Assembly (NCBI GenBank): GCA_029936875.1 | Contig: JAPYRS010000008.1 | Span: 1 to 41,522 of the forward strand | From: Alphaproteobacteria bacterium | GTDB lineage: Bacteria > Pseudomonadota > Alphaproteobacteria > SHVP01 | Length of the DNA stretch: 41,522 bases | Reading direction: 5' to 3' | Part shown: one piece after another, positions 1 through 16,793 of the stretch | Layout: every line of letters begins with the position of its first letter | How positions within the stretch are numbered: position 1 is the first letter of the stretch | Made by a program: the position numbers and the translations under genes | Notes under the pieces: generated by a model | What the model saw: only the letters and a program-made list of their open reading frames with translations | Databases searched by the model: none | What the model was told of the DNA's origin: nothing

Positions 1-458
1 GACGAAACACCGTCTGGTAACGCGATCGATTCCAATTCCAGTTCTTCCATCGGTTGGTCGCCGAGGATGATCGCGCCGTCCGCCATCAGCGGCACAAGCA
101 GCGGCACCAAAAATCTTGCCAGCGCTTCTGACGCCGCCTTGTCGCCGGTGCCGATATCACAATGGGCGAGGGCAGCCCGGCCCGGCAGTATTTCTCCGGC
201 GCGCGGCAGCGTTTGGTCAAATGTGCCGACCAAGGTGTGATCGACGTCGGGGATGCAGTCTGGGTGAGCCACAATCTCGCGGTCGAATACGAAAATTTCG
301 CGGCCGGGCAGTATCGTTCGGAGATGATCGAAGGTGCGGCCGTTACCTAGGCCAAGTTCCAGCACCGGTCCCGGCACATCGGTAAGCAGGTTTGCGGCCT
401 GATCAAGACAGGCGCGCTGTGCAGTAAGACGGCGAATGACGCTATCGAGACGGCTCAT
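1..458 (-). CDS. Class I SAM-dependent methyltransferase, partial (runs off left edge)
   Basis: Not in the ORF track; translated by hand from ATG at 458-456 on the minus strand: MSRLDSVIRRLTAQRACLDQAANLLTDVPGPVLELGLGNGRTFDHLRTILPGREIFVFDRE... The VLELGLGNGRTFDHL segment looks like SAM-binding motif I. Open to the window edge. Confidence 0.75.
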   Translation of the reverse strand, partial: MSRLDSVIRRLTAQRACLDQAANLLTDVPGPVLELGLGNGRTFDHLRTILPGREIFVFDREIVAHPDCIPDVDHTLVGTFDQTLPRAGEILPGRAALAHCDIGTGDKAASEALARFLVPLLVPLMADGAIILGDQPMEELELESIALPDGVS

Positions 459-527: not shown

Positions 528-983
528 TTAGCCGCCAGCGCGACCGAGCGCCCGGCTTAACTGCCCGGTTGTCCGCTGCAGGTCGGTCGCGAGTTTCCGC
601 ATGATCTCGACCGCCATCTGCGGAAATTCTGTGACCATCCGGAAAAACAGATCCTTGGAGATGCGCAGCGCCGTCACTTCGGAAACAGCCCGCACCGTCG
701 CCGTCCGCGGCACATCACAAAGGATGGCGATTTCGCCGACGACATCGTTCTGGCCGACCTGGGTCACCGTTTTTGGTCCGTCATCGGTTTGAATCATGAC
801 ATCGGCGGTGCCACCAATAATGATGTAGGCCGCATCACCCATATCGCCTTCGACGCAAAGATCCTGGCCCGCCTGAAAGACCAGCCGTTCGGAGGTAAAG
901 GCGAGAAGCTTCAGTTTCGACGGTTCAATATTCTTGAACAGTGGAATGTTGCGGAGCAGCTCAACTTCTTCGTTCAGACTCAC
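528..983 (-). CDS. Cyclic nucleotide-binding domain protein (Crp/CNBD fold, no visible DNA-binding domain)
   Basis: 151 aa with a phosphate-binding-cassette-like motif VGEIAILCDVPRTATVRAVSEVTALRI. Too short for a C-terminal HTH. Confidence 0.85.
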   Translation of the reverse strand: MSLNEEVELLRNIPLFKNIEPSKLKLLAFTSERLVFQAGQDLCVEGDMGDAAYIIIGGTADVMIQTDDGPKTVTQVGQNDVVGEIAILCDVPRTATVRAVSEVTALRISKDLFFRMVTEFPQMAVEIMRKLATDLQRTTGQLSRALGRAGG

Positions 984-995
984 GGTCTCTATCCT

Positions 996-3653
996 CTACG
1001 ACGCCGCGTGGGCATCAATTAGTTGCGGCAAGGCTTTGCCGCTCTCTTTGAGTTGGGCATAGGTGCCCTGTTCTGCAATCTCGCCACCGGACATGACGAT
1101 CACATGATCGAAACTCTTCGCAAGTTCCGGGTGTTGCAAGGCCCAAATCACGCTGCGGCCGGCATATTCATCAAGAATGTTTTTCATGATGGCGGCTTCA
1201 ACAGAAGCATCGAGCGCCGCCGTCGCTTCTGACAGGATCAGGACATCAGGCCGCTTGATGATGGAGCGCGCCAGCACAAGTTTCTGCCGCTGTGCCGTTG
1301 TGAGACGGGCGCCGCCAACGCCGACATCAAAGCCAAAGCCAACCTCGACCACGATATCGTAAAGGTTTTCTTCTTGAATCACGTCGGAGATCAGTGAACC
1401 AATGCTGGCAGCGGCTTCTGCCTGTCCGTAGGCGATTTTGCCGAACAGAATATTGTCCTGAAGGTTCGCCGCCGAGATGTAATTATCGGATTGGTAAAAC
1501 TCGACCGAGGCCCGCAAATCGTCCGGCATTTCGAGGCTGAACATCGCGCGCGCCTGGAGGATTCGCGCCTGAAAACTTTCGTCGATAAGGCCAAGCCGAT
1601 GCCGCGCAGGAATAATCAGGAACGGTAGCGCCAAAAGTTGCGCCCGGTCTTCCTCGCTGAGCTGATCAAGATTGTCACGGTCTGAGCGGTTCAGAATTGC
1701 CTGATATTCCGGCAGATACTCGGACGAGATGAAACTGAACTGCTGGAAGAATTCGTGATCGGCCGGAAGGTCGGCAAACAATTCAACCATTGTCGCGGCA
1801 ACCTGATGGCCCATCTGCACAAAGTCATGGGTGAGATTTGATTTCTCAAGAATCGAAAGCACGTAGGGGTGCTCGGATATCTTGTCCATGTCAAAGGCGT
1901 CGCCGACGGTATTTCCGAACACCAGGTTTTCGGCAACGGTAGCATTCGCGTTGTATTTATCGCGGTCGAATGTTTCGATCAGGTCGGCCATGCCGGGGCC
2001 TTTGGCATGCTCGCGTAGCGCCGTCCGCGCGCGCAAAATCGCCTCGGCAACTTCCGGCTTGTCGACCGGATCAATCGCGCCGCGCAATCCAAATTGATAA
2101 ACCTCTTCGTCGAGGCCGACCATTTTTAAGACACGCAGTCCTTCCCGGGTTAGCGATTCGGGGCCGTCTGCGCCGGCCGCGTCATAGTCAATCCATTGAG
2201 CAAAATAATCGTCCTCTGAATTACCAGAGGCTTTGGCTTCCGAAGCGCGCGCCTTGTGCTGTTTTACAAGTTTCTCGTCCGGATTGTCGCTGATCGGCCG
2301 ATGCTTCAAGCCATAAAACAGATTGTCGCCAAGCGATCCCGAAAACACGTGCCCACCTTGGCCAATATACGACATGCGACGCCCGGTAATCGCTTCGGGG
2401 AAACTTGAAATGTCATTACCGCCAATCGAGATGCGGCCCTTGTTGGGATCGAGCAGGCGCGCCAATAACATGGCGATACTTTCGCGGCCGGAACCGCCGC
2501 CGCCGACAATGGCAATACTTTTGTCGAGCTCGAGAGTCGCGTTAACGCCGTCAACAACCGCGACATCCTGATCGTCGAGCATGGTCAGGTTTGAGAGCGA
2601 CATTTCGCCGGTGAGCGGTGCAATCGTATCCGGTTCTTTCATCTGGTAATCGGCGTCGCGCATGCCGGCCGGCTGGAACTGCACGATCACCTGTTCATAT
2701 TTGATGCGGCTATCTTCCATCATCTGGTAGTAGCGGAGAAGTTCTTTCCACGGCGCCGCCAAATCTTTGTGAGCGGCAATCGCCGCCATCAACGTGCCGA
2801 TATCAAGACCGCCGGTGATGACCAGGTAGCCGCCGAGCGAATAGAAAAAAAACGGGCCGAGTTGCTGAATAAAGTTGTTGATGAACTTGATGACAAATTT
2901 CTTGCGGTAAATCTGGTAGCGCACATCAAAGATGTCACCGAGACGATTGCCAAAATCGGAGCGTTCCCGATTTGACGTATCGTGGACATGGACTTCCTGT
3001 GCGCCCTGTACCGACTCGCCGATCCGTTCCGACAATTTGCGGACCAGACGAACCCGCTCTTTGCCAAGTTTGTTCACCTTCGACTGCAATTTTGGGATGA
3101 TGTAGACCTGCAGCGGATAGAGCGAGACCGCCGCCGCCGCCATGATCGGATTCTGCACAAACAGAAACGCGAGAATTACGAGCAGCTGGCCGCCCTGGAA
3201 CGCAGGCAGTGAATAGGCGTCGCCGACAAATCCACCGAGCGGCTCAACCTCCTGGGTGATCATCGGAATGATCTCGCCCTGCGACATATTGCGGAAGGTT
3301 GGCAGCGGAAAACGCAGGACGCGCGCAAATAAGTCATAGCGAAGGCGCCGCAGCATGCGCTCGCCGGTCAGGCCCTTGTAGACGTTGATGTAGTATTTGA
3401 AGCCCTGGTTGATGATGACCAGGATCAAAAATCCAATGCAAAGCGTCAGCAAATACTGAATATGGCCGAACTCAACGCCAAACAATTCGACCGGAAAACG
3501 CTCTGGTGACGCTATAATAGCGTTATTAATGATGTTTTTAGGTAATTCGTAGAATAAGTATAGAAATGGGAAAGAAGCAGCAGAGACAATCATCAGCCAT
3601 ACTTGCTGGCGCGCACTATAGCGCAAGATATACTTAAATACGCTCTTTTCCAT
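996..3653 (-). CDS. ABC exporter-type fusion protein (TMD + NBD) with an expanded, degenerate NBD
   Basis: 885 aa. N-terminal multi-helix ABC exporter TMD; NBD-like C-terminus with Walker A-like GGGGSGRES, signature-like LTTAQRQKLVLARSI, Walker B-like DVLILSEATAALD and H-loop-like WALQHPE. Confidence 0.85.
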   Translation of the reverse strand: MEKSVFKYILRYSARQQVWLMIVSAASFPFLYLFYELPKNIINNAIIASPERFPVELFGVEFGHIQYLLTLCIGFLILVIINQGFKYYINVYKGLTGERMLRRLRYDLFARVLRFPLPTFRNMSQGEIIPMITQEVEPLGGFVGDAYSLPAFQGGQLLVILAFLFVQNPIMAAAAVSLYPLQVYIIPKLQSKVNKLGKERVRLVRKLSERIGESVQGAQEVHVHDTSNRERSDFGNRLGDIFDVRYQIYRKKFVIKFINNFIQQLGPFFFYSLGGYLVITGGLDIGTLMAAIAAHKDLAAPWKELLRYYQMMEDSRIKYEQVIVQFQPAGMRDADYQMKEPDTIAPLTGEMSLSNLTMLDDQDVAVVDGVNATLELDKSIAIVGGGGSGRESIAMLLARLLDPNKGRISIGGNDISSFPEAITGRRMSYIGQGGHVFSGSLGDNLFYGLKHRPISDNPDEKLVKQHKARASEAKASGNSEDDYFAQWIDYDAAGADGPESLTREGLRVLKMVGLDEEVYQFGLRGAIDPVDKPEVAEAILRARTALREHAKGPGMADLIETFDRDKYNANATVAENLVFGNTVGDAFDMDKISEHPYVLSILEKSNLTHDFVQMGHQVAATMVELFADLPADHEFFQQFSFISSEYLPEYQAILNRSDRDNLDQLSEEDRAQLLALPFLIIPARHRLGLIDESFQARILQARAMFSLEMPDDLRASVEFYQSDNYISAANLQDNILFGKIAYGQAEAAASIGSLISDVIQEENLYDIVVEVGFGFDVGVGGARLTTAQRQKLVLARSIIKRPDVLILSEATAALDASVEAAIMKNILDEYAGRSVIWALQHPELAKSFDHVIVMSGGEIAEQGTYAQLKESGKALPQLIDAHAAS

Positions 3654-3789
3654 TACTTGGTACCAGTTGACCTCGTCACCGCGAAGCGCTGGATCGCGCG
3701 CCGTGGGACCGTGAATCTATCGCTATATAGTGGCAGGACAACCAAAAAGTGGCTTTCTGCTAAAATTCCTCTATGGCATAGTTCGCCCC

Positions 3790-5058
3790 ATGTCGGACAA
3801 AGAGATAAAAAACGCCGAGGGGAGCCGGAAAAACAGCGGTTCCCGGGTCCTGATCTACAGCCATGACACAATGGGGCTCGGCCATTTGCGCCGCTGCCGG
3901 GCAATCGCCCACGCGCTGGTCGAGCGCTACAACAACCTCAGCGTCCTGATTTTGTCAGGATCGCCGATTATTGGCAGTTTTGACTTCCGCGCCCGCGTCG
4001 ATTTCGTTCGCATTCCGGGGGTGATCAAACTCCGGAACGGCGAATATACGGCGCTCAACCTTCATATCGATCTCGAAAAAACTTTGTCGATGCGGTCCAG
4101 CATCATCAAGCATACGGCGCTTATTTTCGATCCGGACGTTTTCATCGTCGACAAGGAGCCACTTGGCCTCCGCGGCGAAGTTGAAGAAACACTGGAGATG
4201 CTGAAAGAGCGCGGCACCCATCTAGTTCTCGGGCTTCGCGATGTGATGGATTCGCCGACGCTGCTTGTGCCCGAATGGAAACGCAAGAAAGTGCTGCCGG
4301 CACTGAGGCGCCTTTACGATTCGATCTGGATTTACGGGCTGCCGCAAATTTGCGAGCCGATGCAGGACATCGCCCTGCCCAAGGGCGTCCAGAAAAAAGT
4401 TACCTACACCGGATATCTGCGCCGCCACGTGCCGAAAGCCACTGTCGCTACCCGCCTCCCTGAAATTACGCAAAAACCCTACATTCTTGTCACCACCGGC
4501 GGTGGCGGCGACGGCGAAGACCTGATCGAGTGGGTGCTGCGCGCCTACGAAACCGATCCACTGTTGCCCTATCCCGCGCTGTTTGTGCTCGGCCCATTCA
4601 TGGCGCCGGAACTTCAGGCCGATTTTCAACGGCGCGCGGCGAAACTAAAACGCGTGCAGGCGATTACTTTCGACACCAACATGGAAGTTCTCGAACAGGG
4701 CGCCGCCGGCATTGTTGCGATGGGCGGTTACAATACGTTTTGCGAAGTCCTGTCGATGGATCGGCGGGCCATCATCGTGCCTCGCACCGCGCCGCGACTT
4801 GAGCAATACATTCGGGCGTCTCGCGCTCAAAGCCTTGGCCTGGTGCAGATGCTGGAAAGTGACGGCGGCATGGACCCGCAAGTGATGGCCGACGCGCTTC
4901 GTGCGTTGCCGCGCCAGAAACGTCCGTCCGAAATTATCGTGCCGGGTCTTCTTGAGGGTCTCGAAAACGTCAACCGGCTGATCCAGCCCTTGATCGAAAA
5001 ACCCACCAGAGCCGAAACGCCCGTCGCCGGCGAGGATACCTTTCGCCGCCAAGCCTGA
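3790..5058 (+). CDS. Glycosyltransferase, GT28/MurG-like
   Basis: SRVLIYSHDTMGLGHLRRCRAIAHAL N-terminus, VTTGGGGDGEDL and VAMGGYNTFCEVLSMDRRAIIVPR C-terminal nucleotide-sugar-binding features. Start chosen at ATG 3790; the ORF track extends to 3730. Confidence 0.8.
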   Translation: MSDKEIKNAEGSRKNSGSRVLIYSHDTMGLGHLRRCRAIAHALVERYNNLSVLILSGSPIIGSFDFRARVDFVRIPGVIKLRNGEYTALNLHIDLEKTLSMRSSIIKHTALIFDPDVFIVDKEPLGLRGEVEETLEMLKERGTHLVLGLRDVMDSPTLLVPEWKRKKVLPALRRLYDSIWIYGLPQICEPMQDIALPKGVQKKVTYTGYLRRHVPKATVATRLPEITQKPYILVTTGGGGDGEDLIEWVLRAYETDPLLPYPALFVLGPFMAPELQADFQRRAAKLKRVQAITFDTNMEVLEQGAAGIVAMGGYNTFCEVLSMDRRAIIVPRTAPRLEQYIRASRAQSLGLVQMLESDGGMDPQVMADALRALPRQKRPSEIIVPGLLEGLENVNRLIQPLIEKPTRAETPVAGEDTFRRQA

Positions 5059-5066
5059 GGCCGGCA

Positions 5067-6365
5067 ATGTCGACAAGCGAGGGGTCGCATAGCTTGAAAG
5101 CGCCGGGCCTGAATTCGCCGGGCCTCAAGTCAATTGGCGTCGCTTTTGTGCTGAAGGGTTACCCCCGGCTTTCGGAAACATTTATCGCGCAAGAGATTCT
5201 TGCGCTGGAACAGCGCGGCCTCGACATACTGATTGTGAGTTTGCGAAAGCCAACCGACGGCGCGGTTCATCCGGTTCACCGTGAAATAGATGCGCGCGTC
5301 TTATATGTCCCGGAATATCTTTACAGGGAACCTCTGCGGGTCTGGCGCGCTTATCGCGCGGTTCGCAGGTGGCCGACCTATCGGGCGGTGCGGCGTCAGT
5401 GGTTGCGAGACCTGCGGCGTGACTTCACACCGAACCGCGTCCGCCGGTTCGGCCAGGCATTGGTTTTGGCATTTGAGCTCGACAATAAATATGAGCGCCT
5501 GCACGCGCATTTTCTCCATACGCCGGGAAGTGTTGCCCGTTGTGCGGCCGGCTTGCGGCAGCTACCGATGACCATCTCCGCCCATGCCAAAGATATCTGG
5601 ACGATTCCTGAATGGGAGAAACGGGAAAAGATCGCCGCCGCCGAATGGCTGGTCACCTGCAGCGCGATCAATCGGGATCACCTCGCGGGATTGGGCGACG
5701 CTGGCAAGATCGAACTTGTCTACCACGGCCTTGATTTCCAGCGCTTTCCGGCCGCGCCTGATCGCCCACAACGCGACGGCATAAACGCCGATGACCCGAT
5801 AAATATTTTGTCGGTTGGACGTGCCGTCGAAAAAAAGGGCATCGACGATGTTCTCAAGGCGCTTTCGAAATTACCGAATGACATTCATTGGCGCTTTGTT
5901 CATGTCGGCGGTGGAGAGCTTTTGGGCTCCCTGAAAAACCAGGCGGAAGGTCTCGGCATTTCAGACCGGGTGACCTGGCGGGGTGCATTGCCACAGGAAG
6001 CGGTGATCGAGGAATACCGGCGCGCGGATCTTTTTGTTCTGGCGAGCCGGATTGCACAAAGCGGCGACCGCGACGGTCTACCCAATGTGTTGATGGAGGC
6101 GCAGAGCCAGTCGCTTGCCTGTATCGCGACCAACGTCTCGGCGATTCCGGAATTGATCACGCACAACGAGACCGGTGTTCTTGTGCCGCCGTCGGACGGC
6201 CACGCGCTTGCCAATGCGATAACGGAAATGATTCTCGACCCTGACTTGCGCGCGCGCTTTGGTGCGGCCGGAAATGATCGGGTGCGGGCAGAATTTTCGA
6301 TGACCGCCGGAATCGACCAACTGGCGGATCGGTTCGGCCTCAGTGCCCGCGCCGCCGCCGAATAA
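5067..6365 (+). CDS. Glycosyltransferase family 4 (group 1)
   Basis: 432 aa; GVAFVLKGYPRLSETFIAQEILALEQRG N-terminus, ILSVGRAVEKKGIDDVLKAL, LFVLASRIAQSGDRDGLPNVLMEAQSQSLACIATNVSAIPELI. Confidence 0.88.
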   Translation: MSTSEGSHSLKAPGLNSPGLKSIGVAFVLKGYPRLSETFIAQEILALEQRGLDILIVSLRKPTDGAVHPVHREIDARVLYVPEYLYREPLRVWRAYRAVRRWPTYRAVRRQWLRDLRRDFTPNRVRRFGQALVLAFELDNKYERLHAHFLHTPGSVARCAAGLRQLPMTISAHAKDIWTIPEWEKREKIAAAEWLVTCSAINRDHLAGLGDAGKIELVYHGLDFQRFPAAPDRPQRDGINADDPINILSVGRAVEKKGIDDVLKALSKLPNDIHWRFVHVGGGELLGSLKNQAEGLGISDRVTWRGALPQEAVIEEYRRADLFVLASRIAQSGDRDGLPNVLMEAQSQSLACIATNVSAIPELITHNETGVLVPPSDGHALANAITEMILDPDLRARFGAAGNDRVRAEFSMTAGIDQLADRFGLSARAAAE

Positions 6366-6370
6366 CGCTC

Positions 6371-7534
6371 GTGCAGATCGCCTTTTACGCGCCCTTAAAG
6401 GCGCCGTCCCATCAAACGCCCTCCGGTGACCGGCGGGTCGGGCGATTGTTGATCAAAGCCTTATCTGAGGCCGGGCATCAGGTTGAAGTCGCCTCCGAGA
6501 TGCGAAGTTTCTGTCGCACGCCCGTTGGCAATTGTTTCGTTGATCGAAAACATGAGGCGGAATTGGAAGCCGCGCGCCTGATCGCCGAATACAAGAGCAA
6601 TGCCCGGTCCCGACCCGATATCTGGTTCACCTATCATGTTTATTACAAAGCGCCCGACTGGATAGGACCGGCGGTGGCTGCCGCGGTCGGCATTCCCTAT
6701 GTCATCGTGGAGGCGAGCCACGCGCCGAAGCGTAGCCTCGGCCCGTGGGCGGTGGGGCACCAGGCGGCGGAGCAAGCGATTCAGGCCGCCGACTTGATCG
6801 TCAACCTGACCCGGGCTGACATGGCTTGCGTTGCGCCAGTCGCAAAACCGGACGCGATGTTTTACCTCGCGCCGTTTCTCGATCCGGCACCGTTTCAATT
6901 GGCGCAACAGAACCGCGAGTCCCATCGGCGAGCGCTTGCCAGCTCCGAGTCGCTCGATCCCCGACAACCGTGGCTGCTCGCGGTCGCCATGATGCGGCCC
7001 GGACCAAAAACAGAATCCTATTTGCTGCTGGCCGATTCGCTTGGAAAAATTGCCGACCGGAAGTGGCAATTGGTGATCGTTGGTGACGGCGAATGCCGTG
7101 CACAAATTGAAAACGCATTTCAGAAATTTAAAACAGGCAAGATCACATTTCTCGGCGAACAAACGCCGGATGATTTGCCGGGCATTTATGCCGCCGCTGA
7201 TCTTTACGTCTGGCCATCGATCCACGAGGCCTACGGCATGGCACTTTTGGAAGCGGCCGCTGCCGGGACACCTGTGATCGCCGCCGATACGCGCGGTGTC
7301 CCCGATGTTGTTGAAAGCGGCGTCACCGGGACTCTGGTCGTGCTGAATGACGCGGCCGCGTTTGCAGGTGCGGTGGCGGAACTTCTCGATGACCATTCAA
7401 AACGGGCAGCGATGGGCGTCGCGGCGATGGACAAAGTCGCCGGAGAACATTCTCTTGCCCATGCGGCAGGCGAACTTGAACAAATGCTGGCATCTGTTGT
7501 TGTGCGCTTTGCCACCAATAAGGCGGCGGAATAA
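6371..7534 (+). CDS. Glycosyltransferase family 4 (group 1)
   Basis: 387 aa; LVIVGDGECRAQIE, ITFLGEQTPDDLPGIYAAADLYVWPSIHEAYGMALLEAAAAGTPVIAADTRGVPDVV. Probable GTG start. Confidence 0.87.
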   Translation: MQIAFYAPLKAPSHQTPSGDRRVGRLLIKALSEAGHQVEVASEMRSFCRTPVGNCFVDRKHEAELEAARLIAEYKSNARSRPDIWFTYHVYYKAPDWIGPAVAAAVGIPYVIVEASHAPKRSLGPWAVGHQAAEQAIQAADLIVNLTRADMACVAPVAKPDAMFYLAPFLDPAPFQLAQQNRESHRRALASSESLDPRQPWLLAVAMMRPGPKTESYLLLADSLGKIADRKWQLVIVGDGECRAQIENAFQKFKTGKITFLGEQTPDDLPGIYAAADLYVWPSIHEAYGMALLEAAAAGTPVIAADTRGVPDVVESGVTGTLVVLNDAAAFAGAVAELLDDHSKRAAMGVAAMDKVAGEHSLAHAAGELEQMLASVVVRFATNKAAE

Positions 7535-8127
7535 TGCGGCTCGCGCTGATCCGCCACGGCCCAACCGAATGGAACGCGGCAAAACGCATTCAGGGCCGAA
7601 CCGACATTGCGCTATCGGACGCGGGTCGCCTGGAAACCGGAACATGGACCGCACCGGCAGATTTTGAGAACGCGCGTCTGATATCAAGCCCGCTTTCACG
7701 CGCTGTCGAGACTGCGGAGATTCTGTTTGGCCGAACGCCGGAGATTGAGGCCCGCCTGATCGAAACCGACTGGGGCAATTGGGAGGGCATGACTCTCATC
7801 GCCTTGCGCGATGACCTTGGCCCGGTAATGGCCGCCAATGAGGCTCAGGGCCTTGATTTTCGCCCCGAAGGCGGCGAAAGCCCGCGTGATGTGCAGGACC
7901 GGCTTAGGCCTTGGCTGAGTGAGATCGGCGCCGGTGACGGCGCGGTTGTTGCGATCACCCACCGCGGCGTGATGCGGAGCGTGATATCGCTGGCGCTCAA
8001 CTGGGACATGAAAGCTGACGCGCCCTCAAAACTTGAACACGCGTCGGCGCAATTCTTTTTTGTTGATGGCGACGGCACGGTCTCGGTCGACGCGCTAAAT
8101 CAGTCTCTCTTAAGGCGCGCCGGGTGA
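7534..8127 (+). CDS. Histidine phosphatase family protein (phosphoglycerate mutase-like)
   Basis: LIRHGPTEWNAAKRIQGRTDIALSDAGR (RHG motif), second His in VAITHRGVMRSV. Start overlaps the preceding stop. Confidence 0.9.
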   Translation: MRLALIRHGPTEWNAAKRIQGRTDIALSDAGRLETGTWTAPADFENARLISSPLSRAVETAEILFGRTPEIEARLIETDWGNWEGMTLIALRDDLGPVMAANEAQGLDFRPEGGESPRDVQDRLRPWLSEIGAGDGAVVAITHRGVMRSVISLALNWDMKADAPSKLEHASAQFFFVDGDGTVSVDALNQSLLRRAG

Positions 8128-8140
8128 TACGAATAAGACC

Positions 8141-9313
8141 ATGAGCAATCGGCGCATTCTTTTTTACGTTCAGCACCTGCTCGGCATTGGCCATTTGAAA
8201 CGGGCGGCGACGCTGTGCCGGGCGATGTCGGCAGCCGGCATGGACGTGACGCTGATTTCCGGCGGCGGCAATGTGCCGGGTCTTAACATCGGCGGTGCCG
8301 ATTTTATTCAGCTACCGCCAACGCGGGCGACCGATCTCTATTTTAAAAAACTGGTTGATGAAAACGACCAACCAATCGACGACGATTGGAAGGCGCGGCG
8401 GCGCGAGCAACTGCTTGAGGCGCGGAGCGAGTTTGATCCGCATGTATTGATGATCGAACTGTTTCCGTTTGGGCGGCGGCAAATGCGATTCGAACTCGAC
8501 CCGCTGCTGGACGCGGCAATCGTGGCCAATCATCGCCCGGTGATCGTTTCGTCGGTGCGCGATATTTTGGTGGCGCAGGAAAAAGCCGAACGGAACGACG
8601 AGATGCTGGCACGGGTCGAAAAATACTTCGACCACATTTTGGTTCACGGCGACGCGGATTTTATTGCGCTCGACAAAACATTTTCGCACGCCGCGCAAAT
8701 CAAAGAGAAGATTTACTACACCGGTTACGTCGTTGACCGAACCGCGCGGGTGAGCCCCGACCGGGAAAGTGGCCGGGACGAAGTCATTGTCTCGGCAGGT
8801 GGCGGCGCGGTTGGGCTCGAGTTCTTAAAGTTTTCAATTGCGGCGCGGGAAATATCAACGCTGGCGGATCGAACCTGGCGCATTCTGGTTGGCTACAATC
8901 TGCCACAGGAATATTTCGATCAACTTGTCGCGCTCGCGGCACACGCCGGGGGCGGCGTCATCGTCGAACGGGCGCGGGCCGATTTTCCGGTCCTGCTGCG
9001 GAACTGTGCGCTGTCGCTGAGCCAAGGCGGCTACAATACGATGATGGAAACACTGGAGGCTGGCGCTCACGCGGTGATCGTCCCCTACGCGGGCGGGATT
9101 GAGACCGAGCAGACTCTGCGCGCCCGCGGCATCGGCGAGCGGGGCGGCATCACCATACTGGATGAAGCGGATCTGGCCCCGGACAGCATTGGCGCCGCAA
9201 TCGCGACCGCCATCGCCACGCCGCCAGCGCACGTGACCAAACTCGATACCGACGGCGATACCGTCACGGTCGATCTCGTCGCCGGTTGGGCCGGGAGCAG
9301 GGCATGGGACTGA
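8141..9313 (+). CDS. Glycosyltransferase, GT28/MurG-like, paralogous to the product of 3790..5058
   Basis: RRILFYVQHLLGIGHLKRAATLCRAM, IYYTGYVV, LSQGGYNTMMETLEAGAHAVIVPYAGGIETEQTLRARG; matching motifs in the same order as the protein at 3790..5058. Confidence 0.8.
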   Translation: MSNRRILFYVQHLLGIGHLKRAATLCRAMSAAGMDVTLISGGGNVPGLNIGGADFIQLPPTRATDLYFKKLVDENDQPIDDDWKARRREQLLEARSEFDPHVLMIELFPFGRRQMRFELDPLLDAAIVANHRPVIVSSVRDILVAQEKAERNDEMLARVEKYFDHILVHGDADFIALDKTFSHAAQIKEKIYYTGYVVDRTARVSPDRESGRDEVIVSAGGGAVGLEFLKFSIAAREISTLADRTWRILVGYNLPQEYFDQLVALAAHAGGGVIVERARADFPVLLRNCALSLSQGGYNTMMETLEAGAHAVIVPYAGGIETEQTLRARGIGERGGITILDEADLAPDSIGAAIATAIATPPAHVTKLDTDGDTVTVDLVAGWAGSRAWD

Positions 9314-9362
9314 TGCGATCTGAATCTATCGGCCGCACATTTTTTCGGAGAGGCGTTCGTAA

Positions 9363-10133
9363 ATGACTGACGCCGGTGATCCCTGGCTTGGTTTAGAGCG
9401 CGAACTCGACCTTTGGGCGGATGCTGGCAATGTCGCGCCGTTCTGGTGGCGGGACGATGACGCTGTGGTGCCAAGTGACCGGCTCGATCGCCTGCTTAGC
9501 CTTGCCGCGCATCAACAGACACCGCTTTGTCTCGCCGTGGTTCCGGAACCGGCAACCGAAGCGCTGCAATCCCGACTGCAAGAGGTGGCCGATGTTCGGG
9601 TCGCGGTACACGGCTGGGGACACGTCAATCACGCCCCGGACGGCGAGAAAAAGGCTGAATTCGGGCCTCACCGGCCCTTACGTGTCATGACAGAAGAAGC
9701 CGCGCAGGGTCTTCAGCGAATATCGGCGCTGTTTGGCGGCCAGGCGATTGCCACGTTTGTTCCACCCTGGAACCGAATCGATACGAATCTGATCGCGCCG
9801 CTCGGCGAGATTGGCTTTACTGGTGTATCCGGCCACCGCAGCAGGAAAACCACGGCCTCTGTGACCGACGTCACAGCCGCCGATATTCATGTCGATATCG
9901 TCGATTGGGGAGAAAGTCGCGCATTCGTCGGCGAAGAACCGGCATTGCGGACGATTTATGTTCAATTGGCCGAGGCCCGGGAAGCCGAAATCGAATTGCC
10001 GGCGACCGGACTGCTGACGCACCACCTGGTGATGGACGATGCGGCGTTTGATTTCACCGCGCGGCTGCTGGAAAAAATTCATGCCCACCGGGGCGCAACA
10101 TGGTTAACGCCTAAGGCCGTATTCTCGAGATGA
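9363..10133 (+). CDS. Polysaccharide deacetylase-like (NodB-type carbohydrate esterase) protein
   Basis: WWRDDDAVVPSDRLDRLLSLA (DD motif), VAVHGWGHVNHAP (HxxxxxH-type metal motif region), FVPPWNRI. Confidence 0.8.
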   Translation: MTDAGDPWLGLERELDLWADAGNVAPFWWRDDDAVVPSDRLDRLLSLAAHQQTPLCLAVVPEPATEALQSRLQEVADVRVAVHGWGHVNHAPDGEKKAEFGPHRPLRVMTEEAAQGLQRISALFGGQAIATFVPPWNRIDTNLIAPLGEIGFTGVSGHRSRKTTASVTDVTAADIHVDIVDWGESRAFVGEEPALRTIYVQLAEAREAEIELPATGLLTHHLVMDDAAFDFTARLLEKIHAHRGATWLTPKAVFSR

Positions 10134-10702: not shown

Positions 10703-12592
10703 ATGGGCAACACTCTTCTGGTTCGAAACCTCAAGATCGAGTTCGACGCGCCCGAGGGCCGCATCGAGGCGGTGCGGGGTGTTTCATTCCGGGTTCCGGC
10801 CCGGAAGACTGTCGCCATCGTCGGCGAATCAGGATCGGGCAAATCGGTGATCAGCCAGGCGATCATGGGGATCCTGCCCAAGGCCGGACGGATCACCGCC
10901 GGCGAAATTATTTTCTTCGATCCAGAGAAACCGCAGTCGTTTGTCGATATCGTTAAGTTGCCGCCGGAAAGCAAAGAAATGCGAGCGCTCCACGGTGGGC
11001 GGATCTCAATCATCTTTCAGGAGCCGATGACGTCGCTGTCGCCGCTTCATACGATTGGCAACCAGATCACGGAAGCCTTTCACCTCCATACCCAGGCGAC
11101 CAAGGCCGAAGGCCTCGACGCGATGGAAGAGGTATTTCGCCTGATCGGATTTCCGAATCCGAAAGAGGCGGGCTTCTCCTATCCGTTTGAACTTTCCGGC
11201 GGGTTGCGGCAACGGGCGATGATCGCGATGGCGCTGATATGCCAGCCGGCGGTTCTGATCGCTGATGAGCCGACGACCGCGCTCGACGTCACCATTCAGG
11301 CGCAGATTCTCCAACTGATGAAGGATCTGCAAAGCGAACTCAACATGGCGCTGCTGATGATCACGCACGATCTCGGCGTCGTCGCCAACATGGCCGACGA
11401 GATTGTCGTCATGTACCACGGCGAGGTGATGGAACAGGGGACGCTCGACCATATTTTTCGGGACCCGCAACATCCCTACCTAAAAGCACTTCTAAATGCG
11501 GTGCCGCGGTTCGACATGAAAGAGGGCGAACGCCTGATCCCGATCCGGGAGATCAAGGCGACACCGGGCGGCATGCTTTCGAAACAGGACTACGACCCCA
11601 GCACGATCGACCGGCGGAAACCTCTACTGGCTGTCACCAACCTCAGCAAATCGTTTGAGACGCGGAAGCGCTCGCTGCTGGGCGGCAGTCCGGGCGGTTC
11701 GGTCAAAGCATTGGACAACGTCAGTTTTGAAGTGCGGCGCGGCGAATGCCTCGGGCTGGTCGGTGAATCCGGCTGCGGCAAGACCACCACCAGCAAGATA
11801 TTGATGAAAGCGCTTTCCGCAGACAGCGGTAGCATTATCTTCAATGACCGCGGTCGCGAAATGGATGTCCTGCATATGGCGAAGGGCGAACTCCCGTTAT
11901 TTCGCCGCCGCGTCCAGTACATTTTTCAGGACCCGTTCGGATCTCTCAATCCGCGCATGACCGTTTTCGATATCGTCAGTGAGCCACTGATCATTCACAA
12001 GGTCGGCACAGCCGAAGAGCGCCAGCAAATGGTGCGTGAACTGATGACGTTGGTCGGACTGGATGTCCGCCATCTGCGCCGCTACCCCCATAGTTTTTCT
12101 GGCGGCCAGCGCCAACGCATCGGTATCGCCCGCGCTCTCGCCTTAAAGCCCGACCTCTTGATTTGCGACGAACCGGTCTCTGCACTCGACGTCTCAATCC
12201 AGGCGCAAATTCTGAACCTGCTGAAAGACCTGCAGGAAAAACTCGGCCTCACCTACCTGTTTATTTCGCACAACCTCGCGGTGATTGATTACATCTCTGA
12301 TCGGATCGCCGTGATGTGTGCGGGGCGCATTGTTGAACTCGCGCCGCGGAAGATATTTTTTGAGCGGTCGATTCACCCCTACACAAAGGCGTTGCTGGCG
12401 GCGGTGCCGGAACCTAATCCGGATGCCCGTCTCGACCTTCGGGCGCTGATGGATGGGCACGCCTCGGATCCGACAAAATGGCCAGAACCCTTCACCTTGA
12501 ACGGCTCTGGACCCTCAAATATGGTGGACATGGGCGAAGGTCACTTCGTCCGGGCCTCGGGCGTTACCGCGGCACGGGAGTTACTAAAATGA
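10703..12592 (+). CDS. Dipeptide/oligopeptide-type ABC transporter ATP-binding protein, two fused NBDs
   Basis: 629 aa; Walker A GESGSGKS and GESGCGKTT, signatures [15 protein letters not shown] and [15 protein letters not shown], Walker [12 protein letters not shown] and [11 protein letters not shown]. Confidence 0.93.
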
Positions 12593-14556
12593 TCAGTTTT
12601 GGGCAGCGCGCCACATTGGCGGTACCCAAATGGTCGGCGTTACGCAGATGGACGGCGCTTCGCCTTACGGCAAACGCCGCGTTTGTTGCCGTCATCGGTA
12701 TCGGTTTTGCTGCACCTGCTGCCGCCGTCGAGCTGGTCGAGACACCGTTCTTTCAGGAAAAGGTAGCGGCCGGCGAATTGCCAAGCGTCGATAAGCGCGT
12801 GCCGTCCAACCCCAGCATCGTAAGCTTAAGCGGCGACAAACAGATTGGCCGACACGGCGGCGAAATGCGGATGCTGATCGGGCGACCACGCGATGTTCGG
12901 CTGTTGGTGGTTTACGGCTATGCGCGGCTGATCGCTTACGACGAAGATTTCAATCTGGTGCCGGACATTCTTCAAGACCTCGAAGTCGAAGACGGCCGGA
13001 TCTTCACGCTGCATCTGCGGCCCGGTCACAAGTGGTCGGATGGATCACCGTTTACGTCCGAGGATTTCCGCTATTGGTGGGACGACGTTGCCAACAACCC
13101 GGAATTGAGCCCGTCCGGCCCGCCGGTCGACCTGCGAGTCGATGGCGAGCTGCCGCTGTTTGAAGTCCTTGATGAAACGACGGTGCGTTTCACCTGGGCC
13201 AGTGCAAATCCATTTTTCCTGCCGCGGCTTGCCGGCGCCTCACCATTATTCATTTATCGCCCGTCCAAATACCTGAGGGGCTTCCACATCACCTACACCA
13301 GTGAAGCCGAACTTGAAGAAAAGATTGGCAATTCACGGAACTGGGCATCGCAGCATAATCGCCAGGACAATATGTACCGGTTCGATAATCCGAAACTGCC
13401 GACGCTGCAGCCGTGGGTCAATACGACAAGCCCCCCGGCGACAAGATTTATCGGCGTGCGTAATCCGTATTTTCACCGGGTCGATACCGAAGGACGCCAA
13501 CTTCCCTATATCGACAAATACATTTTGATTCAGGCGGCGGCCGCGCTAATCCCGGCGAAGGCGGGTGCCGGTGAAGTTGACCTTCAGGCGCGGAGCCTTG
13601 CGTTCAGCGATTTCACCTTTCTTCGCGAAGCGCAGGAGCGGAACAATTTCAAGACGCTGCTGTGGCGGGAGGCCAAGGGCAGCCACATTGCGCTGTTCCC
13701 GAACCTCAATATCAACGATGAAGTCTGGCGCGGCATTATGCGGGACGTGCGTTTCCGGCGGGCACTTTCATTGTCGATTGACCGCGACCTCGTCAATGAG
13801 GCGCTTTATTTCGGTCTCGCGATTTCCGGCAACAACACCGTGCTTCCTGAAAGCAGCCTCTACCGCGAAGAGTTCATGACCAAGTGGACCGAATACGATC
13901 CCGACGCGGCCAACGCGCTGTTGGATGAGATGGGTCTGACCGAGCGCAACAAGGATGACATTCGGTTACTGCCGGACGGGCGGCCCATGAACATCATTGT
14001 CGAAACCGCCGGTGAATCGACCGAACAAACCGATATTCTCGAACTGGTCAAAGACGATTGGGACGCGATCGGCATCAAGCTGTTCTCGAAACCGACGCAG
14101 CGGGAGATTTTTCGCAATCGGATATTTGCCGGTGAGACCATGGTTGCCGTCTGGACCGGATTCGAGAACGGCATCCCGACACCCGATTTCAACCCGGCCG
14201 AACTCGCACCGACATCGCAACACAGCTATCAGTGGCCGAAGTGGGGCCAATATTACGAGACCTCTGGCCGTTCGGGCGAGACACCCGACATGCCGGCAGC
14301 AATCGAATTGCAAAACCTCCACAAACAATGGCTCAACGCCGATTCGACCGAAGGACGTGAAGCGGCGTGGCTGAAAATGCTTGAGATCCATGCCAACGAA
14401 ATGTTCACCATCGGCATTGTTACCGGCGTGATGCAGCCTATCGTCGTCAAAGCGACACTGCGCAACATTCCGGAAGAAGGAATTTTCAACTGGGAGCCGG
14501 GCGCCCAACTTGGCATCTATCGTCCCGATACATTTTGGTTCGACGACGCAAGTTGA
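12589..14556 (+). CDS. ABC transporter substrate-binding protein, family 5 (peptide/nickel type)
   Basis: Signal-peptide-like N-terminus after ATG 12589 (...LTANAAFVAVIGIGFAAPAAAVE), FTLHLRPGHKWSDGSPFTSEDFRYWWDDV, VRFRRALSLSIDRDLVNEAL. ATGA overlap with the ATPase stop; the ORF track start at 12478 is too early. Confidence 0.9.
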   Translation: MISFGQRATLAVPKWSALRRWTALRLTANAAFVAVIGIGFAAPAAAVELVETPFFQEKVAAGELPSVDKRVPSNPSIVSLSGDKQIGRHGGEMRMLIGRPRDVRLLVVYGYARLIAYDEDFNLVPDILQDLEVEDGRIFTLHLRPGHKWSDGSPFTSEDFRYWWDDVANNPELSPSGPPVDLRVDGELPLFEVLDETTVRFTWASANPFFLPRLAGASPLFIYRPSKYLRGFHITYTSEAELEEKIGNSRNWASQHNRQDNMYRFDNPKLPTLQPWVNTTSPPATRFIGVRNPYFHRVDTEGRQLPYIDKYILIQAAAALIPAKAGAGEVDLQARSLAFSDFTFLREAQERNNFKTLLWREAKGSHIALFPNLNINDEVWRGIMRDVRFRRALSLSIDRDLVNEALYFGLAISGNNTVLPESSLYREEFMTKWTEYDPDAANALLDEMGLTERNKDDIRLLPDGRPMNIIVETAGESTEQTDILELVKDDWDAIGIKLFSKPTQREIFRNRIFAGETMVAVWTGFENGIPTPDFNPAELAPTSQHSYQWPKWGQYYETSGRSGETPDMPAAIELQNLHKQWLNADSTEGREAAWLKMLEIHANEMFTIGIVTGVMQPIVVKATLRNIPEEGIFNWEPGAQLGIYRPDTFWFDDAS

Positions 14557-14580
14557 TCGGGGAGCGACCGGCACCACAGC

Positions 14581-15606
14581 ATGTTTAATTACCTGATCCA
14601 ACGCATCCTGATCATGATCCCAACGTTGTTGGTGATCTCGATCCTGATTTTCATCATCATTCAGTTGCCGCCGGGAGATTTCCTATCGAACCAGCTGGCG
14701 GAACTGCGTGCACAGGGCGACACGGCGGCGATTGAAAAAATCGACTTTCTCCGCGCCCAGTATGGCCTCGACCGGCCGATGGTCGAACAGTATGTCATCT
14801 GGCTCGGCGTCTGGCCGGGACCGGATGGAATTTCCGGGCTGTTGCAGGGCGACTTCGGCCATTCATTTGAGTTTGATCTTCCGGTTGCCGACATCATCGG
14901 CGACCGGGTCTGGCTCTCGTTCATCGTCTCGTTTGCGACAATTATTTTTACCTGGCTGGTTTCCTTTCCGATCGGTATTTATTCGGCAACCCACCAGTAC
15001 AGCTGGGGCGATCATACGCTGACCTTTGTTGGCTTTATCGGCCTGGCCACGCCCAACTTTTTGCTCGCCCTGGTGATGCTTTATTTTGCCAATGTCTGGT
15101 TTGGTACCGAGATCGGCGGCCTGATGGCCGAGGAATATCTCGATCAACCGTGGTCGTTTGGCAAGTTGGGATCGATACTGGAACATCTCTGGGTGCCCGT
15201 CGTCGTGATCGGGACTTCCGGCACCGCCGGCATGATCCGCCGTCTTCGCGCCAATCTTCTCGATGAACTGCACAAACAGTATGTCGTGACCGGACGCGCC
15301 AAGGGCCTCGGTTCGTTCAAGCTGCTGGTCAAATATCCGCTGCGGATGGCGCTCAACCCGTTCATCGCCGACATCGGCAATTTGCTGCCGCAGGTTATTT
15401 CCGGCGCGGCCATCGTTTCGGTCGTGCTGTCGCTGCCGACCACCGGGCCGATGCTTTTACAGGCGCTTCAGAGCCAGGATCAATACCTTGCCGGATCGTT
15501 CCTGATGGCGCTCGCAATGCTTACCGTGATTGGCATGTTCCTAAGCGATGTCGCGCTCGCCATGCTTGATCCGCGCATTCGTTTGGGCGCGAGTGGCACA
15601 CGATGA
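14581..15606 (+). CDS. ABC transporter permease (DppB/YejB type)
   Basis: 341 aa; MFNYLIQRILIMIPTLLVISILIFIIIQLPPGD N-terminus, ...RARANLLDELHKQYVVTGRAKGLG EAA-loop region. Confidence 0.92.
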   Translation: MFNYLIQRILIMIPTLLVISILIFIIIQLPPGDFLSNQLAELRAQGDTAAIEKIDFLRAQYGLDRPMVEQYVIWLGVWPGPDGISGLLQGDFGHSFEFDLPVADIIGDRVWLSFIVSFATIIFTWLVSFPIGIYSATHQYSWGDHTLTFVGFIGLATPNFLLALVMLYFANVWFGTEIGGLMAEEYLDQPWSFGKLGSILEHLWVPVVVIGTSGTAGMIRRLRANLLDELHKQYVVTGRAKGLGSFKLLVKYPLRMALNPFIADIGNLLPQVISGAAIVSVVLSLPTTGPMLLQALQSQDQYLAGSFLMALAMLTVIGMFLSDVALAMLDPRIRLGASGTR

Positions 15607-16793
15607 CCGACCGTCCATCAGATTCGCCAACAGATCGCAGCGAGCAGCCGCTGGAGCATTACGTCAGCACTGCGCCTTTTGATCCGTACACCGTTGAGAC
15701 CATGACGCCCGAGCAGGAGCGTTTTTTCATGGCCTCGCAGTGGAAATTGATGTGGTGGAAATTGTTGCGCCACCGCCTTGCCGTGGTTTCCGGTTTGTTT
15801 CTGCTGTTCATGTATGGATCGATTTTGGTCAGCGAAGCGCTGGCGCCCTACGAACTCAGCACCCGCGACCGGCGCCATATCTTCGCGCCGCCGCAAGGCA
15901 TTCATCTGTTCCATGAAGGCAGGTTGGTCGGGCCGTTTGTTTACGGGTACGACCGCACGCTCAATCTCGAGACGCTCAAGCGCATATACACGCCGAACAT
16001 GGACAAGGTGCAAAAGCTGCGCTTTTTCTGCCTCGGCGATGAGTACGAATTCTGGGGCATGCTGGAAGGGCGCTTTCACATCGTTTGCCCGGCCAAGGGC
16101 GGTACATTATTTCTGTTCGGCACCGACAGATTAGGGCGCGACGTATTTTCGCGCATTGTTTACGGCACCCGAATATCACTGACCGTTGGGTTATTCGGCA
16201 TCACCATCAGCTTCCTGCTCGGCATCGTGCTCGGTGGCCTCGCCGGCTATTACGGCGGTTGGACCGATTCGATTGTGCAACGGATGATCGAAATCATTCG
16301 CTCGTTCCCGGAGCTGCCACTGTGGATGGCGCTATCGGCGGCCCTGCCTGTCACCTGGAGTCCGATTCTGATTTATTTCGGAATCACCATCATTCTCGGT
16401 TTGATCGATTGGACCGGCCTTGCCCGAGCGGTGCGATCGAAGTTGCTCGCCCTTCGTGAAGAAGACTTCGCCACCGCCGCCGTGCTAATGGGCGCGTCAC
16501 CGGGTCGCGTTATCGGCCGCCATCTGCTGCCGAGTTTCATGAGCCATCTGATTGCATCGGCGACACTTTCAATTCCGTCGATGATCCTCGGCGAAACGGC
16601 CTTATCATTCCTTGGGCTGGGGCTTCGGCCCCCAATCACAAGCTGGGGTGTGTTGCTGAACGAGGCGCAAAATATCAATGCCGTTGCGCTGCATCCGTGG
16701 CTTATGATTCCGGTAATCCCGGTGATTCTGACGGTGCTCGCGCTGAACTTCTTCGGCGATGGATTGCGCGACGCGGCCGACCCCTACAAGTAA
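15603..16793 (+). CDS. ABC transporter permease (DppC/YejE type) with extended periplasmic insert
   Basis: 396 aa; LFGTDRLGRDVFSRIVYGTRISLTVGLFG and FATAAVLMGASPGRVIGRHLLPS are typical of DppC-family permeases. ATGA overlap with the upstream permease. Confidence 0.92.
   Translation: MTDRPSDSPTDRSEQPLEHYVSTAPFDPYTVETMTPEQERFFMASQWKLMWWKLLRHRLAVVSGLFLLFMYGSILVSEALAPYELSTRDRRHIFAPPQGIHLFHEGRLVGPFVYGYDRTLNLETLKRIYTPNMDKVQKLRFFCLGDEYEFWGMLEGRFHIVCPAKGGTLFLFGTDRLGRDVFSRIVYGTRISLTVGLFGITISFLLGIVLGGLAGYYGGWTDSIVQRMIEIIRSFPELPLWMALSAALPVTWSPILIYFGITIILGLIDWTGLARAVRSKLLALREEDFATAAVLMGASPGRVIGRHLLPSFMSHLIASATLSIPSMILGETALSFLGLGLRPPITSWGVLLNEAQNINAVALHPWLMIPVIPVILTVLALNFFGDGLRDAADPYK

Follow-up and report, generated by a model that had tools for sequence, protein, structure and literature searches.

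Degenerate ATPase motifs, a triplicated element and a cyclic-nucleotide-binding partner in a family of ABC exporter-like proteins of Alphaproteobacteria

The window, meaning the whole 41,522-nt stretch of DNA that was analysed, encodes an ABC exporter-like protein (here the pseudo-ABC protein) in which the ATPase motifs are degenerate. The Lys, Asp and Gly positions of these motifs are normally needed for ATP binding and hydrolysis. The locus raises the question of whether the loss belongs to one gene or to a family, and of what such a protein might do. Searches of the openly accessible literature for degenerate exporters with a cyclic-nucleotide-binding (CNB) domain, for exporters lacking a nucleotide-binding domain (NBD) and for Sinorhizobium meliloti locus tags found no description of the family. 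Its members are usually annotated as ‘ABC transporter ATP-binding protein’, which would be wrong in many genomes if ATP is not used. If our reading is true, they would also offer a natural test of a long-standing question, namely whether the membrane domains of ABC exporters can carry substrates across when no ATP is hydrolysed.

Domain layout and catalytic motifs of the window protein

The Pfam models PF00664 (ABC_membrane; residues 65-292, 76.4 bits) and PF00005 (ABC_tran; residues 368-465, 51.9 bits) both match above cut-off, the latter over the first half of the NBD only. The transmembrane domain (TMD) and NBD are fused in one chain, the architecture of an ABC exporter with a type IV TMD fold. 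The second NBD half (residues 711-880) can be aligned to exporters such as HlyB and P-gp, and in a phmmer alignment residues 360-454 correspond to P-gp 403-497 and residues 755-872 to P-gp 500-620. An AlphaFold2 model built from 77 family members (mean pLDDT 89.2, pTM 0.84) resembles the MsbA, TmrAB, TM287/288 and P-gp structures in the PDB, at 12-15% identity. Type IV exporters of the MsbA/Sav1866/TM287-288 kind share the TMD and NBD fold and the domain order, and gave the top structural and sequence matches. The window protein misses the MsbA NCBIfam equivalog cut-off (193 bits against 602), and it differs from MsbA-type exporters in lacking the catalytic set, in having a CNB partner and in the roughly 300 residues that a triplicated NBD element adds. 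Positions of all features are given in Table 1.

Table 1. Features of the window, with positions in nucleotides and residue numbers of the pseudo-ABC protein
Feature	Position	Strand	Remarks
Methyltransf_17 (SAM methyltransferase) gene	3..458	(-)	PF12692; third operon gene, cut by window edge
CNB-domain protein gene	528..983	(-)	151 aa; 12 bp downstream of pseudo-ABC; PF00027 only
Phosphate-binding cassette of CNB protein, VVGEIAILCDVPRTATVRA	687..743	(-)	CNB alignment
Pseudo-ABC exporter gene	996..3653	(-)	885 aa, ATG start; TMD and degenerate NBD with insert
H-loop region, IWALQHP	1128..1148	(-)	residues 836-842; Q840 at H-loop position
Degenerate Walker B and D-loop, VLILSEATAALD	1209..1244	(-)	residues 804-815
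Degenerate signature, LTTAQRQ	1284..1304	(-)	residues 784-790
Repeat 3, NYISAANLQDNILFGK	1338..1505	(-)	residues 717-772; runs on into C-terminal NBD half; hhalign, secondary structure as repeat 2
About 300 extra residues within NBD relative to canonical exporters	1392..2291	(-)	residues 455-754; phmmer alignment, gap between P-gp 497 and 500
Repeat 2, YNANATVAENLVFGN	1776..1979	(-)	residues 559-626; hhalign to repeat 3
Repeat 1, Q-loop/ENLxFG/helical element	2085..2378	(-)	residues 426-523; matches canonical Q-loop segment; hhalign to repeats 2 and 3
Degenerate Walker A, GGGGSGRES	2478..2504	(-)	residues 384-392; family pattern G-x-x-[GSA]-x-G-[KR]-[ED]
Exporter-type TMD	2649..3653	(-)	residues 1-335; PF00664; best conserved large block of family
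Divergent cluster: glycosyltransferases (3730, 5067, 6371, 8141), histidine phosphatase (7534), unassigned ORF 9363	3730..10133	(+)	Pfam
Peptide/dipeptide-type ABC importer: two-NBD ATPase, SBP_bac_5, two permeases	10703..16793	(+)	ORFs, Pfam

The canonical Walker A motif GxxGxGK[ST] is absent from the window protein, GGGGSGRES standing in its place with Arg for the Lys, and LSGGQ is replaced by LTTAQ (residues 784-788). Walker B reads LILSEA (residues 805-810), in which S808 occupies the position of the Asp and E809 that of the catalytic Glu, and the D-loop Asp is present at residue 815. All of these were read correctly in the earlier note, which went astray at the H-loop: it had the His as retained, but alignment with P-gp puts the canonical His on Q840, and H841 is the next residue, where P-gp has Arg. 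Normal Walker A and B motifs are seen in most of the genome's other ABC exporters.

Loss of the catalytic set across the family

A first database scan recovered 20 full-length orthologs (50-66% identity). A search across the class then found strong matches in 148 of 387 Alphaproteobacterial genomes (~38%) and in 92 of 264 genera, carriers including nitrogen-fixing Rhizobium and Sinorhizobium. Within a phylum sample of 398 genomes, full-length members were confined to Alphaproteobacteria, and the single match outside the class was a protein without an NBD. The family set comprises 113 distinct Alphaproteobacterial members of 32-66% identity, the counts referring to the genomes sampled.

The catalytic core was scored as seven residues (K, S/T, D, E, H and the signature S and G) and is complete in 0 of the 113 members. 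At position 390, that of the Walker A Lys, 54/113 have Lys and 50/113 have Arg, leaving a basic residue in 104/113. The adjoining Mg-binding position, 391, holds Ser or Thr in 8/113 and Glu or Asp in 89/113. Signature glycines are found at 786 in 13/113 and at 787 in 11/113, while the Walker B Asp is kept in 14/113, the catalytic Glu in 62/113 and the H-loop His (position 840) in 33/113. The median member has 4 or 5 of 11 canonical features, and in some members the P-loop is shorter by two residues. Lys, Ser/Thr, Asp and Glu are all kept together in three of the 113 (L099, L146 and L147). Judged by these residues, the catalytic ATPase set is gone in every member.

Two other features are conserved in their place: [KR][ED] at 390-391, and two acidic residues at 360-361, a site near the A-loop by motif register. 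Among 77 sequences, 34 columns are invariant; these lie in the TMD, in the insert and at a few NBD positions, and Walker A contributes just one of them, G389. Mean conservation in the family alignment is 0.68 for the TMD against 0.43-0.55 across most of the NBD, with peaks in the TMD, in the two downstream ENLxFG repeats and in the signature helix.

The earlier note had offered a pseudo-ATPase exporter as one reading, and an alignment of orthologs as a way to see whether the substitutions are conserved. The loss of catalysis did prove family-wide, as no ortholog has intact motifs, yet the particular substitutions are mostly not conserved: Lys and Arg at 390 have changed at least 14 times on a 111-member tree, and there is drift at the Walker B and signature positions as well.

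Triplicated element, CNB partner and gene neighbourhood

The earlier note overlooked the roughly 300 extra NBD residues with their triplication, the CNB partner and the NBD-less relatives of the TMD. Family sub-alignments were compared with hhalign, the E-values being those of one-to-one comparisons. Repeats 2 and 3 matched with a probability of 97.6% (E 1.5e-11), repeats 1 and 2 with 74% and repeats 1 and 3 with 58%; controls using the TMD and the N-terminal NBD gave probabilities of ~0. Repeats 2 and 3 have a common strand-helix-strand-helix order in the AlphaFold2 model. The profiles of repeats 1 and 3 both match the same Q-loop-to-helical stretch in canonical exporters of the window's genome; therefore a copy of one canonical segment stands on either side of the extra residues, with a third copy between. 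The insert presumably arose by tandem duplication of the Q-loop/helical element, followed by divergence.

The insert is conserved even where the catalytic motifs have been erased. Methylobacterium-type variants (L172:7473-10025, L173:5635-8589, L174:6295-8895 and L177:6453-9296) have a diverged TMD and an unrecognisable signature and Walker B, and they keep the insert well, including ENILFG, FADLPDDHPLF and ETRHRFGLID.

A CNB-type domain is adjacent or just downstream, or fused, in 112 of the 113 members, one of them at 615 bp; L116 is the one member without it. A CNB gene within 200 bp on the same strand accompanies 97/113 members, one of these calls resting on an over-extended ORF. In 14/113 members, all of one clade in the tree, the CNB domain is fused to the C-terminus of the pseudo-ABC protein. 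The phosphate-binding cassette contains the Glu and Arg that mark a CNB domain predicted to bind cyclic nucleotides, and its conservation is near complete in the 106 aligned CNB sequences (G83 106/106, E84 103/106, R93 106/106, A95 105/106). The most divergent lineages have fused CNB domains, which lie outside this alignment and deviate from the cassette, and retention of the CNB domain is weaker there. We considered whether the CNB gene might encode a Crp/Fnr transcription factor and rejected this, the 151-aa product having PF00027 alone and no C-terminal helix-turn-helix. As far as sequence can tell, the central result is this contrast between a preserved CNB cassette and a drifting ATP site. 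It gives the ‘altered nucleotide use’ of the earlier note a concrete form, a conserved CNB partner or fused domain that its reader had not seen.

The window CNB gene matches TIGR03896. A CNB-type domain is likewise fused or co-encoded in HetC of Nostoc and in the NHLM/TIGR03896 exporters. HetC has an essential ATPase residue, a peptidase domain and an N-terminal CNB domain, whereas the pseudo-ABC protein has a predicted dead ATPase and, where fused, a C-terminal CNB domain. Control of HetC is exerted through its CNB-type domain, which has ppGpp as ligand and is essential in vivo (PMC10986499); CNB domains therefore need not bind cyclic nucleotides.

Neighbours were counted as homologs of the window proteins, because longest-ORF calls gave antisense ORFs in GC-rich loci. 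Among 82 long loci, homologs of the glycosyltransferases occur in 54-66%, of the histidine phosphatase in 59% and of the SAM methyltransferase in 38 (46%). The peptide-type importer of the window recurs, with the order kept, beside the pseudo-ABC gene in Rhizobium and S. meliloti; Rhizobium pRLG202 keeps together the importer, three glycosyltransferases, the pseudo-ABC gene and the CNB gene. On S. meliloti pSymB the cluster further includes a methyltransferase, and upstream of the pseudo-ABC cluster lie a class III (adenylate/guanylate) cyclase-domain protein (L188:744-2093) and a polysaccharide lyase. The window's genome encodes ten class III cyclase domains. Alphaproteobacterial genomes frequently encode many cyclases with few known cyclic-nucleotide targets, and an invariant CNB partner would tie cyclic-nucleotide signalling directly to the cell envelope.

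A membrane domain possibly independent of ATP: relatives, proposed mechanism and alternatives

The closest relatives of the pseudo-ABC TMD, with up to 44% identity to it, carry no NBD. One group consists of stand-alone TMDs of ~400 aa, 40-44% identical (L186:5773-7077, L187:5758-6996, L169:5540-6781, L170:5531-6730 and L171:1-1149); in the two annotated records, from Phaeobacter and Ruegeria, these lie in copper-resistance clusters with multicopper oxidase, copper resistance B, cupredoxin and TolC. A second NBD-less family of 278-337 aa (L164:5862-6869, L165:2690-3703, L166:5953-6789, L167:5910-6854 and L168:6045-6986) is found in genomes that have a pseudo-ABC gene as well; UvrA, pirin and LysR genes are among its neighbours checked. 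Around the NBD-less relatives, none of the neighbours checked was recognised as a transporter NBD gene; an ABC-like ORF adjoining one of them was considered as its NBD and rejected, being UvrA. A further tree unites the pseudo-ABC proteins and their NBD-less relatives in a supported clade that excludes the canonical exporters, with the 400-aa group sister to pseudo-ABC; its root is unsure because the canonical branches are long. This clade fits an early uncoupling from ATP, without proving it.

On balance we lean towards an exporter-fold family with a dead ATPase, in which a ligand at the CNB subunit has taken over control from ATP at the NBD, and substrate movement is driven by a gradient or by synthesis. 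More tentatively, the protein may be a second-messenger-gated flippase, secondary transporter or channel that does not use ATP, its NBD turned by the triplication from an engine into a coupling platform. In the reading that we favour, the membrane domain would form a homodimer like that of MsbA/Sav1866, and the repeat-enlarged pseudo-NBD would serve as a docking and coupling module. Adjacency and fusion suggest a contact between the CNB domain and the pseudo-NBD. On binding its ligand (cAMP, cGMP or another nucleotide), the CNB subunit would switch the membrane domain between states. The substrate is probably a surface glycan or glycolipid, most likely that of the neighbouring glycosyltransferases, and its movement would draw on the substrate's own gradient, on synthesis or on a proton gradient; ATP hydrolysis at the pseudo-NBD would not be the driving force. 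We infer ATP independence, the ligand, the substrate and transport itself. Weak nucleotide binding by the pseudo-NBD is possible, because the P-loop-like glycine loop and the basic residue at 390 (104/113) persist.

A precedent for movement without an NBD is provided by MsbA-MD and LmrA-MD, exporter TMDs that transport with the proton gradient (PMC4979069); in NBD-less MsbA this gradient drives ethidium transport (PMC4979069). These are laboratory truncations, whereas pseudo-ABC is a natural family with a predicted non-functional NBD and natural NBD-less sister families.

Of the alternatives, the one that survives best, though we consider it unlikely, dispenses with transport altogether: the TMD dimer would sit in the membrane as a scaffold or sensor and regulate surface-polysaccharide enzymes by way of the CNB subunit, in the manner of SUR. 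In CFTR (ABCC7) and SUR the ABC fold serves gating or regulation rather than pumping; both bind ATP and retain much of the site, and their relation to the pseudo-ABC sequence is at the level of the superfamily only. The lost ATP site, the CNB partner and the glycosyltransferase neighbours in 54-66% of long loci would all suit a regulatory scaffold. The TMD, however, is better conserved than any other large domain, and this extends to polar residues within predicted helices that a mere scaffold would not need, and NBD-less relatives retain the same TMD in copper-resistance clusters.

The pseudo-ABC protein could instead belong to a heterodimeric exporter as its degenerate half, with the ATP-competent half encoded at another place in the genome; we rank this next and also judge it improbable. 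Heterodimers of this kind, in which one site is degenerate, are common (PMC7756269), and TM287/288, TAP, Pdr5 and ABCG5/G8 likewise lose the catalytic Glu, the signature Gly or the Walker A Lys, the last changed to Cys in Pdr5 and to Arg in ABCG5/G8 (PMC7756269). Several canonical exporters are present in the window's genome, and one of them could pair with pseudo-ABC in trans. Yet in heterodimers one site stays competent and the degenerate one is conserved among orthologs, with half of the motifs usable (PMC7756269), whereas pseudo-ABC appears to encode no competent site, and its Walker A and signature are both lost and drift freely. No second exporter half was found among the recurrent neighbour families at these loci (CNB, methyltransferase, glycosyltransferases, phosphatase).

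Less credible again is that ATP is bound unhydrolysed as a structural glue, making the protein a non-hydrolysing ATP sensor. The invariant G389 in 77 sequences and the basic residue at 390 in 104/113 would be expected of such a site, but the Mg-ligand Ser/Thr is kept in 8/113 and acidic in 89, an acid pair sits at 360/361 near the A-loop by motif register, and some members have two P-loop residues deleted. Lastly, a local pseudogene, sequencing error, chance or ordinary decay, for which only the motif losses themselves and a split S. meliloti 1021 copy speak, can be dismissed almost entirely because 0/113 orthologs retain intact motifs, and these intact, constrained members (32-66% identity) lie in a conserved operon and share invariant sites beyond the catalytic motifs.

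The copy on pSymB of S. meliloti 1021 (L185:13685-16436) consists of two overlapping ORFs, and that of strain R28 (L188) is intact; the split may be the reason why the model strain has no reported phenotype. S. meliloti MsbA2 (SMb21191) was considered as an ortholog and rejected, since the homolog lies at 842-844 kb of pSymB and the MsbA2 operon elsewhere, near 938 kb (PMC3687685). One genome carries two diverged paralogs (L150:5658-8327 and L142:5792-8395), the former without even the P-loop glycine pattern, and each is accompanied by a downstream CNB gene of its own.
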